Assembly: GCF_004283755.1 (NCBI RefSeq)
Contig: NZ_SHMH01000002.1
Span: 372,001 to 436,000 of the forward strand
Length of the DNA stretch: 64,000 nt
Origin: Pseudoxanthomonas winnipegensis
Lineage (GTDB): Bacteria; Pseudomonadota; Gammaproteobacteria; Xanthomonadales; Xanthomonadaceae
Reading direction: 5' to 3'
Below, piece by piece: positions 21,790 through 25,551 of this stretch; the stretch's first letter is position 1, and each line of letters begins with the position of its first letter. The notes beneath the pieces are model-generated. The model saw only the letters and a list, made by a program, of their open reading frames with translations. It did not search any database and was not told the DNA's origin. The translations under genes and the position numbers were made by a program.

Positions 21790-21976
21790 GCGAGCTACTT
21801 TTGTCTTGTCAAAAGTAGCCAAAACCGCTTCTCGCCGGGACGCACGCCGACGCTACGCGTCGGTCCCCTGCGCTCCTCGCGAAGCAGGGCACGGCGCCCA
21901 AACTCGCTTCGCTCAAACAGGGCGCCTCTTGGGCCCTGCTTCGCTGCGGTGCTCGGCGTGCTTTACGGCTCAGACA
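21790..21976 (+). repeat. Structured interspersed repeat, copy A
   Basis: One of three copies in this window. Predicted stems: 21794-21803 with 21810-21819; 21847-21853 with 21857-21863; 21879-21890 with 21933-21944; 21893-21899 with 21920-21926; and an outer stem 21842-21846 with 21957-21961. The 20-base apical loop AAACTCGCTTCGCTCAAACA is identical in all copies. Copy A is nearly identical to the reverse complement of copy B. See the findings for the compensatory differences against copy C. Confidence 0.8.
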
Positions 21977-22007
21977 GGGAAAGCGACTGCAAAAGCAGAG
22001 GCTGTGA

Positions 22008-22052
22008 GCAACAGCAACAGCAACAGCAACAGCGACAGCGACAGCGACAGCG
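22008..22052 (+). repeat. Hexanucleotide tract (CAACAG/CGACAG)n
   Basis: A run of about seven units that changes from CAACAG to CGACAG along its length. It begins about 30 bp after structured repeat copy A. Comparable tracts follow the other two copies. Confidence 0.85.
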
Positions 22053-22122
22053 GGAGGTGGGGCGGAGGCGGGGACGGGGCCTGGGCTGGGAGCCGGGGCC
22101 GAAGCGGTCCTTTCAGACCGTC

Positions 22123-22142
22123 ATTCCCGCGAAAGCGGGAAT
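22123..22142. repeat. REP-like palindrome
   Basis: ATTCCCGC-GAAA-GCGGGAAT, an 8-bp perfect stem with a GAAA tetraloop in the context GTCATTCCCGCGAAAGCGGG. This sequence is a widespread intergenic repeat in many proteobacteria. It lies about 170 bp after the pcaC stop and could stabilise or end the transcript. Confidence 0.6.
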
Positions 22143-22309
22143 CCAGGGACTTTGCGCTGCTCGCTCGTGCTTCGCTTTTGATCCACCGGTGCGGGATCGC
22201 GCGAAGAGCGCCGTTTCAAATCGCCAAGGGTGATGCGCAGGCGCGTTGGCTTTGGAAGGGACATGGGTGTCCCTTCCAAGCACTGCAGCGGGTCACACCG
22301 ACCAGAGCC

Positions 22310-22702
22310 TCACCCAGCCGGCTCAGCCGCCTGCTCTTCCAGAATCGGCTTGGCCAGGGCGAAAGCGTGGTTCGCGGCCGGCACGCCGCAGTAGATCGCG
22401 GTCTGCAGCAGCACTTCCTTGATCTCGTCGGCGCTGACGCCGTTGTTGCGGGCGGCGCGGATGTGCAGCTTGAACTCCTCGTCGTGGCCCAGCGCGACCA
22501 TCATCGCGATGGTCAGCAGCGAGCGGGTGTGCCGCGGCAGGCCGTCGCGCGTCCACACCTCGCCCCAGGCGGCGCGGGTGATGAAGTGCTGGAACTCGTG
22601 GGTGAAGTCGGTGCGTGCGTCCAGCGAGCGCTGCACGTGCGCCTCGCCCAGCACGGCCTTGCGCACGGCCAGGCCGGCTTCGTAACGGGCTTGTTCGTCC
22701 AT
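22310..22702 (-). CDS. pcaC: 4-carboxymuconolactone decarboxylase
   Basis: A 130-residue protein of the carboxymuconolactone decarboxylase/AhpD-like fold. It removes CO2 from gamma-carboxymuconolactone to give beta-ketoadipate enol-lactone in the protocatechuate branch. The family core is clear: GEVWTRDGLPRHTRSLLTIAM, ARNNGVSADEIKEVLLQTAIYCGVPAANHAF. The length is that of a stand-alone PcaC and not a PcaL fusion. It is the last gene of the minus-strand pcaB-D-C block, 19 bp after pcaD. Confidence 0.95.
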   Translation of the reverse strand: MDEQARYEAGLAVRKAVLGEAHVQRSLDARTDFTHEFQHFITRAAWGEVWTRDGLPRHTRSLLTIAMMVALGHDEEFKLHIRAARNNGVSADEIKEVLLQTAIYCGVPAANHAFALAKPILEEQAAEPAG

Positions 22703-22721
22703 CGTGGGGTCCTTGAGGCTC

Positions 22722-23501: not shown

Positions 23502-23526
23502 GGTTGGCTCCGTCGCGGGAAAGGGA

Positions 23527-24864
23527 TCAGTCGGCCGCGAGCACGCGGTCGATCCAGGTGTCGCTCATGCCGCGCCAGCTGTCGGCGGCGAACAGCGCGT
23601 CGAGGCGCGCGGCATCGAGGACGGCACTGACTTGCGCGTCTTCGGCCAGCACCTCGCGCAGGTGGCGCTGCTCGCCGACCGCGCGCTTGGCGGCGGCCTC
23701 GACCAGCGCATGCGCGGCGGACTTGCCGAGCGTGGCCGCCAGCGCGACCGACACCGCCTCGGCGTAGAGCAGGCCGCCGAAGCTGTCCAGATGCGCGGCC
23801 ATGCGTGCGCGGTCCAGCTGCAGGCCATCGAGCACCACGGTCATCTGCGCCAGGCTGCCGGCGGTGAGGCGGATCAGTTCGGGCAGCGTTTCCCATTCGG
23901 CATGCCACTGGCCGGGCGCGCGCTCGTGCGGCTGGCTCATGGCGGCCAACAGCGTGGACACCAGCGCCGGCACGCGCGTGGCCGCGGCGATGGCTGCCAC
24001 GCAGCCGACCGGGTTGCGCTTGTGCGGCATCGCCGAGGAGCCGCCCTTGCCGGCGCCGCTGGGTTCGAAGGCCTCGCCGACCTCGGACTGCATCAGCAGC
24101 ACGATATCGGTGGCGATCTTGCCCAGCGCGCCGGCCAGCAGCGCGAAGGCGGTGCCGACCTCGACGATGCGGTCGCGCGCGGTGTGCCAGGGCAGGGCGG
24201 GCAGCGGCAGCTCCAGCTCCCGGGCGAGCGCCTCGGCCACCTCCAGGCCGCGGTCCTCGAGCGAGGCCAGCGTGCCGGCGGCGCCGCCGAACTGCAGCGC
24301 CAGCGCGTCGGCGCGCAGCGCCCGCAGGCGTCGTTGCGCGCGTTGCAGCGCATCGAGCCAACCGGCGGCCTTCAACCCGAAGGTGACCGGCACGGCCTGT
24401 TGCAGCAGGGTGCGGCCGGGCAGCCCAGTGTCGCGCTCGGCCTGCGCCAGCGTGCGCAGGATGGCGCACAGCCGTTCGAGCTTGGGCGTCAGGGTGTCGA
24501 GCGCCTGACGCAGCTGCAGCACGGTGCCGGTGTCGATCACGTCCTGGCTGGTGGCGCCCCAGTGCACCCAGCGCGCGGCGTCTTCGTCACGTGCCTTCAC
24601 CTTGGCGGTGAGCGCCTTGACCAGCGGGATGGCGGGGTTGCCGGCCAGCGCGGTGGCCGCGCCGAGCGCGTCGAGATCGAAGGCTTCGGCCCGGCAGGCC
24701 TCGGCGATCGGGCCGACGGCGCTGTCGGGAATCACGCCGCAGCGTGCCTCGGCGCGGGCGAGCGCGGCCTCGAAGTCGAGCATGCCCTGCAGCCGTGCGC
24801 GGTCATCGAACAGGGCGTCGATGTCGGGATCGCCGAACAGGGGGGCGAGCAGGCGGGAAGTCAT
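23527..24864 (-). CDS. pcaB: 3-carboxy-cis,cis-muconate cycloisomerase
   Basis: A 445-residue member of the aspartase/fumarase superfamily that lactonises beta-carboxy-cis,cis-muconate, the ring-fission product of PcaHG. The superfamily signature GKGGSSAMPHKRNPVGC is near residue 265, WVHWGATSQDVIDTGT is near residue 95, and the N-terminus LLAPLFGDPDIDALFDDRARLQGML is typical of PcaB. It heads the B-D-C block. About 780 bp of repeat DNA separates it from pcaG upstream, so it either depends on readthrough from pcaIJF-HG or has its own promoter. Confidence 0.95.
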   Translation of the reverse strand: MTSRLLAPLFGDPDIDALFDDRARLQGMLDFEAALARAEARCGVIPDSAVGPIAEACRAEAFDLDALGAATALAGNPAIPLVKALTAKVKARDEDAARWVHWGATSQDVIDTGTVLQLRQALDTLTPKLERLCAILRTLAQAERDTGLPGRTLLQQAVPVTFGLKAAGWLDALQRAQRRLRALRADALALQFGGAAGTLASLEDRGLEVAEALARELELPLPALPWHTARDRIVEVGTAFALLAGALGKIATDIVLLMQSEVGEAFEPSGAGKGGSSAMPHKRNPVGCVAAIAAATRVPALVSTLLAAMSQPHERAPGQWHAEWETLPELIRLTAGSLAQMTVVLDGLQLDRARMAAHLDSFGGLLYAEAVSVALAATLGKSAAHALVEAAAKRAVGEQRHLREVLAEDAQVSAVLDAARLDALFAADSWRGMSDTWIDRVLAAD

Positions 24865-24939
24865 CGATGCGGGTCTTCGGTGTGAGGCTTGATGGGATTA
24901 TGGTGGGCCGATGGCAGGAAGGATGACGTCAAACCGCAC

Positions 24940-25005
24940 GTTGCCGTTGCCGTTGCCGTTGCATTTGCTGTTGCTGTTGCTGTTGCTGTTGCTGTTGCTG
25001 CTGCT
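24940..25005 (-). repeat. Hexanucleotide tract (GTTGCC/GTTGCT)n
   Basis: About eleven hexamer units, first GTTGCC then GTTGCT, the reverse complement of the CAACAG tracts at 22.0 and 25.6 kb. It adjoins structured repeat copy B on the side that corresponds to the 3' end of the element. Confidence 0.85.
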
Positions 25006-25017
25006 CTTCGCTTTTTG

Positions 25018-25200
25018 TCTGAGCCGTAAAGCACGCCGAGCACCGCAGCGAAGCAGGGCCGAAGAGGCGCCCTGTTTGAGCGAAGCGAGTTTGGGCGCCG
25101 TGCCCTGCTTCGCGAGGAGCGCAGGGGACCGACGCGCAGCGTCGGCGTGCGTCCCGGCGAGAAGCGGTTTTGGCTACTTTTGACAAGACAAAAGTAGCTC
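25018..25200 (-). repeat. Structured interspersed repeat, copy B (inverted)
   Basis: The reverse complement is almost identical to copy A, including all five stems and the 20-base apical loop. The few differences I see are in loops (TAC to TGC in the second hairpin, CTTGGG to CTTCGG beside stem 3). Near-identity with A suggests recent copying or gene conversion between the two. Confidence 0.8.
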
Positions 25201-25361
25201 GCGCGGCGAAGCCGTGCGAAAGCTTTGCTTTTGAAAAGCGCCCGCACGGCGCTCAAGTTTTGTTTGCAAATTAAATTCAAGTTTGGCTAAGAACTGGCGC
25301 AGCACTGATTGGACAAGAGCAACGCGCCTGCGGCGCGCCAAGTGCAAAGCTTTCGCGCCTG

Positions 25362-25551
25362 CGGCGCGACTTCCTTTTGTCTTGTCAAAAGGAAGCAAAA
25401 CCGCTTCTCGCCGGGACGCGAGCCGCCGCTGCGCGGCGGTCCCCTGCGCTTCTCGGAAGACGGGGCACGTCGCCCAAACTCGCTTCGCTCAAACAGGGCG
25501 ACTCTTCGGCCCCGTCTTCCTGCGATGCTCGGCTCGCTTTACGGCTCAGAC
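25362..25551 (+). repeat. Structured interspersed repeat, copy C
   Basis: The diverged third copy. Stems: 25370-25379 with 25386-25395; 25423-25429 with 25433-25439; 25455-25466 with 25509-25520; 25469-25475 with 25496-25502; outer 25418-25422 with 25533-25537. Every stem difference from copies A/B is matched by a change in the partner base. The loops TCTTGT and AAACTCGCTTCGCTCAAACA are unchanged. Confidence 0.8.

Follow-up and report, generated by a model that had tools for sequence, protein, structure and literature searches.

Copies of a folded intergenic repeat in Pseudoxanthomonas winnipegensis appear to belong to a structured superfamily that spans phyla

Three copies of a structured repeat, the F1 element, lie within the 64,000-nucleotide stretch of Pseudoxanthomonas winnipegensis DNA that we analysed (the window). 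The core of copy A occupies 21787..21976 (plus strand, the folded sense strand being minus; similarity and profile match), that of copy B 25016..25204 (minus; similarity, profile match and folding) and that of copy C 25363..25552 (plus; profile match, which runs into the end of hairpin H0). These ends differ by a few bases from those in the preliminary description, which had reported the same three copies with B inverted. As inverted arms, A and B show 99% complementarity, and identity between A and C is 85%. Each half-element is ~200 nt long, with a core of ~190 nt, 45 pairs and six helices. H0 comes first and H1 second; a conserved unpaired stretch is followed by an outer stem in two parts and by a long hairpin (H3/H4), whose almost constant 20-nt apical loop contains a GCGNAGC mini-hairpin.

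In copy A, all on the plus strand, we delineated an outer hairpin H0 (TCGCGCC-TGCG-GGCGCGA, 21776..21793, from sequence), which takes the same position in other copies; a head hairpin H1 with the loop TCTTGT (21794..21819, from folding and alignment); a hairpin H2 (21847..21863, from sequence and alignment); and the H3/H4 hairpin (21879..21944, from folding, alignment and covariation), with arms at 21879-21890/21933-21944 and 21893-21899/21920-21926 and the apical loop AAACTCGCTTCGCTCAAACA at 21900..21919 (sense strand TGTTTGAGCGAAGCGAGTTT, with GCGNAGC within). A microsatellite tail, (AGCAAC)n, follows at 22007..22051. On the minus strand, copy B has H1 at 25173-25198, H0 at 25199..25219 (from sequence; partly terminator-like) and its microsatellite tail at 24940..25005. 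A spacer without strand (25220..25352) separates both heads of the inverted pair B/C, and copy C, on the plus strand, has H0 at 25353..25369 (from sequence; terminator-like), H1 at 25370-25395, the loop at 25476-25495 and its microsatellite tail at 25557..25627. H0, outside stem 1, and the (AGCAAC)n tract at the opposite end are parts that had not been described before. The foot of H1 is variable across copies (GTAGC, GGAAG and other forms).

At least 12 compensated stem differences between A/B and C had been claimed from the sequence, along with a common fold and constant loops, and each of these claims holds. Exactly 12 of the 45 pairs differ, both between A and C and between B and C; all 12 are double changes that keep Watson-Crick pairing, none is one-sided, and unpaired columns differ at 4 (A/C) and 2 (B/C) positions. 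The fold of each copy beats 200 of 200 dinucleotide shuffles (z = -4.1 for A, -3.75 for B and -3.2 for C). The 20-nt apical loop is identical across A, B and C, and in 100 shuffles of the window it had 0 matches with up to 3 mismatches.

For the genus we built an alignment of 63 copies (A2), namely A, B, C and 60 others; 91 candidates of at most 200 nt were reduced to 62 representatives below 95% similarity, one (L033 2721-2916) was left out, and A and C were added. Within A2, 95.5% of pair cells are paired, versus 79.0% after shuffling and 36-46% with partners slid, and the covariation score is 0.417 versus 0.126 and 0.03-0.07, respectively, the shuffled control ignoring relatedness in both cases. 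Covariation is present in each helix, and double changes are found at 25 of the 45 pairs and likewise in outer-stem partners >100 nt apart. Tested against a null simulated 20 times on a tree, covariation was significant for 13 of the 18,915 column pairs, 11 of them within the structure; one of the remaining two adjoins an H4 pair and the other is an added junction pair, ~75 columns apart. Outside the genus, 81 distinct sequences are 91.2% paired with double changes at 45 of 45 pairs, figures that lean towards structure because the alignment (A3) was fitted to the model; several H3 pairs are richer in G.U in this fitted cross-phylum alignment.

Eight orthologous positions give a consistent picture, stem letters diverging by 22.8% and unpaired letters by 9.7%. 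Double changes there number 723 (681 of them paired) against 195 expected, and single changes 261 against 1318 expected, with counts summed over all species pairs, which share ancestry, and sense-strand wobbles scored as pairs. We conclude that the stem sequence is free provided that pairing holds, while loops and junctions change slowly.

We next consider a protein product, since long spurious ORFs run across the copies. Of 110 copies, 89 keep the most open frame uninterrupted; no frame is open in all 110, the differences in core length are not divisible by three, and searches of Pfam and NCBIfam with six ORFs across the copies gave no family above cut-off. That the repeat is part of a protein-coding gene is therefore extremely improbable. 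Covariation that greatly exceeds all three kinds of control (shuffled, slid and phylogeny-aware), with no conserved frame, agrees with the original proposal that selection acts on a folded single strand and not on protein.

The strand displayed in the preliminary description, by contrast, turns out to be the antisense of the one that folds under constraint. On that displayed strand, within-helix mismatches in 162 distinct stems from outside the genus comprise 34 A.C and 4 G.T (a set that includes 38 further contigs, L199-L236, with no F1-like copy among these stems), and a subset of 116 stems has 25 A.C and 4 G.T (p = 1e-4). Such an excess of A.C over G.T inside helices indicates that the folding strand is the complement. 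Counted more crudely, with no helix filter, mismatches showed no strand bias (155 A.C, 144 G.T). Judged by the filtered mismatches, one defined strand, bearing TGTTTGAGCGNAGCGAGTT, must fold.

Compensated stems could also arise with no selection on structure, if hairpin-templated (quasipalindrome) correction in replication copied changes across arms and gene conversion then spread them and conserved the loops. Copies do evolve in concert within each genome, though sites are shared between species: in 38 of 40 cases the closest copy is a paralogue, and stems, which are near-perfect, have been exchanged in blocks between copies. Templated correction should, however, be strand-symmetric, and the mismatches are not; nor does it fit the double changes in widely separated outer-stem partners and the significant junction pair, or a loop and junctions common to several phyla, beyond the expected reach of conversion. 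We regard this explanation as improbable.

The family extends well beyond the window. Its own genome holds 15 clear copies by BLAST and 18 covariance-model matches at E<=1e-3. Distribution in the genus is patchy, the element being strong in 8 of 38 genomes, and it was found in at least 9 of 150 genomes (own genome included, with at most 16 candidates per genome scored). With a genus-only covariance model, full-length homologues were found in Bacteroidota, Firmicutes, Desulfobacterota, Burkholderiales and Pasteurellaceae, with 1-197 matches in other phyla and a best E of 8e-20. Model matches were present in 10 of 12 distant genomes, with 1-45 matches each. These genomes and the distant loci (L119-L198) were picked through the loop motif, so loop identity there is not evidence by itself. 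One genome (G058) had 46 loop matches and 0 covariance-model matches, and thus the loop also exists in a form beyond the reach of the model. Searches of plasmid and phage records did not recover the element, and the exact loop was present in just 3 IMG/VR contigs; in this it is unlike many mobile repeats. As far as sequence can tell, the three copies are members of a widespread superfamily whose repeats are structured, intergenic and interspersed. The preliminary description had not foreseen that the family spans phyla.

Within the genus, copies are found alone or paired, flanked by ordinary genes (the pca genes, for example). Inverted pairs account for 46 of 75 loci, 25 of them heads-in and 21 heads-out, and single F1 copies for 22 of 75, although F2 was searched with a rough profile, such that some of these 'single' copies may have partners. 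In head-to-head pairs (n = 28) the stems of the two partners are less alike than in re-paired controls, with similarities of 0.31 versus 0.515 for H1 (p = 0.0008) and 0.48 versus 0.58 for H3 (p = 0.004). Element sites are common to several species, and the B/C pair sits between pcaG and pcaB in five of them. We saw no clean insertion flanked by a target duplication, such as a DDE MITE would leave; a single empty orthologous site (G009) came to light, with flanks too diverged for boundaries or a duplication to be read. Both orientations are present at gene ends. Divergent gaps make up 0 of the 72 called gaps with an element versus 30 of 148 other gaps (Fisher p = 3e-6), and 7 of 38 gaps in the window as further background. 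Genes beside the elements were called from codon GC only, 5 clusters are uncalled and the calls beside copy A are not its true neighbours. Orthologous sites sometimes received different gap classes (L001/L026, L004/L027), and among the gap-class results the lack of divergent gaps is the firmer part.

An intergenic, chromosomal location, frequent inverted pairs and sites common to species would suit an architectural DNA site (cruciform, gyrase, nucleoid-protein or replication-fork, as proposed for BIMEs), at which a host protein binds extruded hairpins in place. A cruciform uses both strands equally, yet the within-helix mismatches are strand-biased, and the patchy distribution within the genus also argues against such a role, which we consider unlikely.

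A linked enzyme, either a reverse transcriptase or a Y1 transposase, had been suggested, and neither was found in the loci examined. The genome has a single PF00078 match for reverse transcriptase, and F1 is absent from its 3.6 kb locus; by eye, this locus resembles a DGR. The window's own genome (G000) has one Y1 match, and the repeat on its flanks is another REP, GTAGAGCGGAGC; a second genome (G017) has 13 F1 matches and 0 Y1 matches. Across the genus, the nine strongest Y1 matches are all in element-holding genomes. Profile R1, applied to 11 of the 30 Y1 loci retrieved for the genus, gave no match at E<=0.01; the best score at the scanned loci was 13.4 bits at L087 (E 0.013), and L322 reached 9.2 bits (E 0.18). 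Y1 loci L318-L322 have no F1 match at E<=0.01, and L318 and L322 carry GGGGTCAGAGTGCA-type inverted repeats instead. Among ORFs of at least 100 aa within 4 kb, no common neighbour gene was found beyond 5 of 80 loci; the largest ORF family near the element, at 7 of 80 loci, is made of ORFs over the element itself.

The folded strand could be RNA. The sense strand would then fold in transcripts (3' UTRs, operon spacers or an sRNA of its own) as a module for binding, processing, stability or termination. Strand-specific wobbles fit this reading, and are compatible with RNA and single-stranded DNA alike. Conserved junction mismatches on the sense strand read, by eye, as purine-purine, and purine-purine mismatches are common in RNA internal loops. 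The absence of the element from called divergent gaps and the position of B/C between pcaG and pcaB are further points in its favour. Together with the T-rich beginning of H1 that follows it, H0 is terminator-like on the displayed strand in all three copies, which gives the RNA reading more weight; terminator-like sites number 2 versus 0.5 expected at A and 3 versus 2.3 expected at B/C. Against it, heads-in and heads-out pairs both occur, such that read-through RNA would contain each orientation, and no sigma-70-type promoter-like site was found at A, B or C. Rfam gave nothing over the element at gathering score, either in the window or in 31 further loci, and five matches at a loose threshold, all well below gathering score. 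One Rfam candidate, MIR5638 (E 6.5e-27; 102.9 bits, where the gathering score is 500), tracks the long inverted repeat B/C and was rejected. The sole gathering-score match in the window, asX1, lies away from the element. Overall, an RNA-level role seems somewhat unlikely. Both orientations at gene ends, the lack of a sigma-70-type promoter and wobbles that are not abundant (22 of 756 H3 cells in A2) lead us to lean, weakly, towards DNA.

The fold itself is probably read by a putative factor. Our preferred reading, which we rate at somewhat less than an even chance, is that F1 is a composite repeat of BIME/REPIN-like type and that its folded single strand, perhaps DNA, is what is recognised. 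A trans-acting factor that processes or binds DNA would read the fold as single-stranded DNA, for example during the strand separation of replication or repair, and would rely on the loop and the shape and not on the stem sequence. This factor, or recombination through the conserved segments, may spread and overwrite copies within a genome, giving a BIME/REPIN-like population. Partners would be unlike because identical inverted arms would pair together and be cleared. A broader proposal, which we also rate at somewhat less than an even chance, is that F1 represents a previously unnamed repeat class of many phyla, in which the folded strand is read by its shape and near-universal loop, a putative phyla-wide factor is unrelated to RAYT, integron integrase or known reverse transcriptases, and free stems keep the inverted halves unpaired.

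What recurs from Xanthomonadaceae to Bacteroidota and Firmicutes, in up to dozens of copies per genome, is one multi-helix fold with a near-fixed loop and unrelated stems. The element is also a source of spurious ORFs. The preliminary description knew of no described system of this form, and we, too, recognised no Rfam family and, in the open-licence literature, no description of the F1 element, though one elsewhere is possible; papers containing either 12-letter motif piece concern other subjects, judging by title.

Several known systems share features with F1. Rfam bacterial structured RNAs have a covarying multi-helix structure, as F1 does. ERIC/YPAL-type repeats are palindromic, intergenic, 130-200 bp long, located near gene ends and narrow in host range. 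F1 is similarly a large palindromic intergenic repeat near gene ends, whereas its family spans phyla and each of its helices covaries. In integron attC sites, shape is conserved, stem sequence is free and the single strand is folded, and F1 resembles them in all three respects. In contrast to attC, F1 has a conserved apical loop, a multi-branched fold and single or paired copies between ordinary genes, and attC boxes (RYYYAAC/GTTRRRY, 30-210 nt apart, either strand) were found in 0 of 110 copies, against 3 of 110 in a shuffled control. OTH-22-1, an attC-like structured single-stranded DNA, occurs in several phyla (PMC8632094), as the F1 family does.

REP/BIME/REPIN elements offer parallels in arrangement. 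REP/BIME units span 20-40 bp and carry a GTAG or CGTC tag, whereas F1 spans ~200 nt and six helices, has no fixed GTAG foot and, unlike REPINs too, keeps a near-identical 20-nt loop in several phyla. No RAYT was found next to F1 at the examined loci, in contrast to RAYT-mobilised REPs. Neither the size nor the tag nor an association with RAYT matches, and a REP/BIME of the known RAYT-driven kind is a very remote prospect, even though REP dimers, as described (PMC3733652), are likewise inverted, prefer unlike partners and are absent from divergent gaps. Like those repeats, F1 is intergenic and multi-copy, lies between unidirectional or convergent genes and forms head-to-head and tail-to-tail inverted dimers in which heterodimers are preferred (PMC3733652). 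The preference of REPs for unlike partners 'has no obvious explanation' in that text (PMC3733652). Because partner avoidance, strand and shape are all measurable in F1, the question of why bacterial inverted repeat dimers favour unlike partners becomes testable here.

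The three copies of the structured repeat claimed in the preliminary description, here termed F1, are real and lie at 21787-21976 (copy A, + strand), 25016-25204 (copy B, - strand) and 25363-25552 (copy C, + strand). As described there, their stem differences are compensated: A and C, and likewise B and C, differ at 12 of the 45 pairs of the structure, all 12 changes in each comparison being two-sided and Watson-Crick, with no one-sided differences and with 4 (A/C) and 2 (B/C) differences in unpaired columns. Folding of A, C and B each beat 200 of 200 dinucleotide shuffles. (AGCAAC)n microsatellites lie at the tails of A (22007-22051), B (24940-25005) and C (25557-25627); they vary in length among orthologous sites and give rise to spurious poly-Q/S/L ORFs. 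Downstream of A is a GTCATTCCCGCGAAAGCGGGAATCCA repeat (22119-22150), variants of which adjoin other copies (loci L007 and L028).

In the window's genome, BLAST detected 15 copies of F1, and a covariance model gave 18 matches at E<=1e-3. Across the genus, seven genomes supplied 110 full-length copies, of which 63, picked for diversity, were aligned. In this alignment 95.5% of pair cells are paired, as against 79.0 ± 0.5% with the 3' letters shuffled and 36-46% once partners are slid by 1-3 columns. Double changes occur at 25 of 45 pairs (448 cells, versus 151 shuffled), and the covariation score of 0.417 (0.126 shuffled, 0.03-0.07 slid) was reached by none of 500 shuffles. The proposed covariation also held under a phylogeny-aware null, in which substitutions were shuffled along a FastTree tree (20 simulations, cut-off E<=0.05): 13 of 18,915 column pairs were significant, 11 of them pairs of the structure. 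One of the remaining pairs adjoins a pair of H4, part of the long hairpin (H3/H4) that carries the near-fixed 20-nt loop, and columns 37 and 112, also significant, add a pair at the junction where the outer stem meets H3. A protein-coding reading of F1 was rejected; with covariation found and the element not coding, the earlier view that constraint acts on structure and not on protein stands. No Rfam model matched the element at gathering score, the sole such match in the window being the Xanthomonadaceae asX1 sRNA (RF02235; 8926-9042), which makes a host from that family probable. The attC box pair was present in 0 of 110 copies, F1 was not seen in plasmid or phage records, and open-licence papers yielded no description of it.

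The loop and fold are common to several phyla. Perfect matches to the 20-nt loop number at least 118 in a collection of 84,980 species, with a chance expectation of ~0.5 computed from collection size. Of 78 listed occurrences that include both flanks, 61 have arms that pair with one another better than with each of 10 arms taken from elsewhere. By eye, many of 40 loci viewed have a CTTTTG-type head hairpin and then a CAAAA- or CAAAGAAA-type stretch, which are absent in L139, L123, L128 and L151. The covariance model, built from genus copies only, matched full-length (1-197) at loop-selected loci in Gammaproteobacteria (8e-20), Bacteroidota (8e-10 and 3e-9) and Firmicutes (4e-8), and also in Burkholderiales and Desulfobacterota; the cross-phylum matches include second halves not chosen by loop. 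Among 12 distant genomes chosen by loop motif, 10 had 1-45 model matches and two had none, one of them (G058) despite 46 loop matches. The model was positive in at least 9 of 150 genomes in an even sample of Pseudomonadota, own genome counted, and gave strong matches in 8 of 38 genus genomes (18 of 38 at E<=1e-3). A model-fitted alignment of sequences from beyond the genus (81 distinct) has 91.2% of its cells paired and double changes at 45 of 45 pairs.

Two genes identified by Pfam domains and gene order as pcaG and pcaB flank the B/C pair, which occupies the same site in the window's genome (G000) and in G017, G010, G008 and G006; G005 lacks the pair and has a few tens of nt there. At eight other own-genome loci compared, flanks match and element copies occur in one to five further species. 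The L007 site is empty in G009 (~40 nt separate the flanking matches), holds F1 in G000 and G017 and F1 with the related family F2 in G010, and has the unit inverted in G006 and G008. Across 8 orthologous positions, stem letters diverge by 22.8% and unpaired letters by 9.7%; we counted 723 double changes, versus 195 expected with independent sides, 681 of which stay paired, and 261 single changes, versus 1318 expected. The nearest copy is a same-genome paralogue in 38 of 40 cases, indicating that copies evolve in concert, being overwritten within genomes. The bodies of B and C are swapped between G000 and G017. No common gene was found beside the element. Where genes were called to the left and right of a cluster (n=72), the gap is convergent (33) or codirectional (39) and never divergent, versus 30 divergent among 148 gaps elsewhere in these loci (p 3e-6).

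Mismatches within helices around the loop, flanked on either side by at least three Watson-Crick pairs, are biased on the strand used in the preliminary description: A.C outnumbers G.T by 34 to 4 in 162 distinct stems outside the genus and by 9 to 1 in 52 stems within it. A subset of 116 outside stems gave 25 versus 4 (p 1e-4), or 45 versus 9 with two flanking pairs; counts without the helix filter show no bias (155 versus 144), and of the two we regard the filtered count as informative. An A.C mismatch on one strand reads G.T or G.U on its complement; hence, the constrained strand is the complement, which carries TGTTTGAGCGNAGCGAGTT. Since this bias is strand-specific, it is less likely that F1 is an architectural DNA element or that its pattern is purely mutational in origin. 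The fold may be recognised as a single strand through its shape and loop, with DNA weakly favoured, a reading that as a whole we hold tentatively, at somewhat below an even chance. Its main rival, an RNA role of the fold in transcripts, is supported by the terminator-like look of the outer hairpin, H0, and we consider it somewhat less likely; we lean weakly to DNA because both orientations occur, A, B and C have no sigma-70-type promoter, and wobbles are not abundant. The variable loop base falls at the N of GCGNAGC, which fits the rule for very stable GNA DNA mini-hairpins but is no more than a hint.

The suggested linkage to a reverse transcriptase (RT) or Y1 transposase was not borne out for the genome's RT or Y1 gene, nor was F1 linked to Y1 at ten further Y1 loci scanned; within the genus, the nine top-scoring Y1 matches all come from genomes that contain F1. 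Locus L088 (G000:C13:300210-300827) resembles, by eye, a diversity-generating retroelement: it has an RT, an adjoining small ORF and proteins with the stretch WSASSAW..FALAVRRAG in common. A GTAGAGCGGAGC-type REP, with two 71-nt tandem copies and a (CAACAG)n tract, occupies 26967-27223; the same REP is found on the flanks of the only Y1 (RAYT-like) gene in the genome (L087, G000:C15:8082-8402).

Within the genus, 25 of 75 loci have two F1 copies head-to-head, like B/C and as oriented in the preliminary description, 3 have F1 tail-to-tail with F1, 18 have F1 tail-to-tail with F2, 22 have single copies and 7 have other combinations. Among the matches listed from other phyla, copies are often tail-to-tail, with loops ~210-280 nt apart. 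F2, with a CTTTCTTTGC..GCAAAGAAAG head and a TTTTTGGA..TCCAAAAA inner hairpin (L042 2905-3125, L059 2785-2998, L311 2860-3110 and others), is probably a further member of the superfamily to which F1 belongs. In a Pasteurellaceae unit (L276), the pair's centre, between loops at 1405 and 1630, has an inverted pair of AAAGTGCGGT, presumably the Pasteurellaceae DNA uptake signal. Head-to-head partners avoid like stems: in 28 pairs, variable arms of the head hairpin (H1) are 31% identical, versus 51.5% when re-paired within genomes (p 0.0008), and H3 is 48% identical versus 58% (p 0.004). Partners are also unlike, by eye, in pairs viewed from other phyla.

Y1 transposases at L318 and L322, flanked by inverted GGGGTCAGAGTGCA-type repeats, resemble the TIRYT/TIRtron class of PMC3733652. 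For REPs, that paper describes a preference for heterodimers and offers no explanation for it; REPs and F1 pairs are alike in favouring unlike partners.
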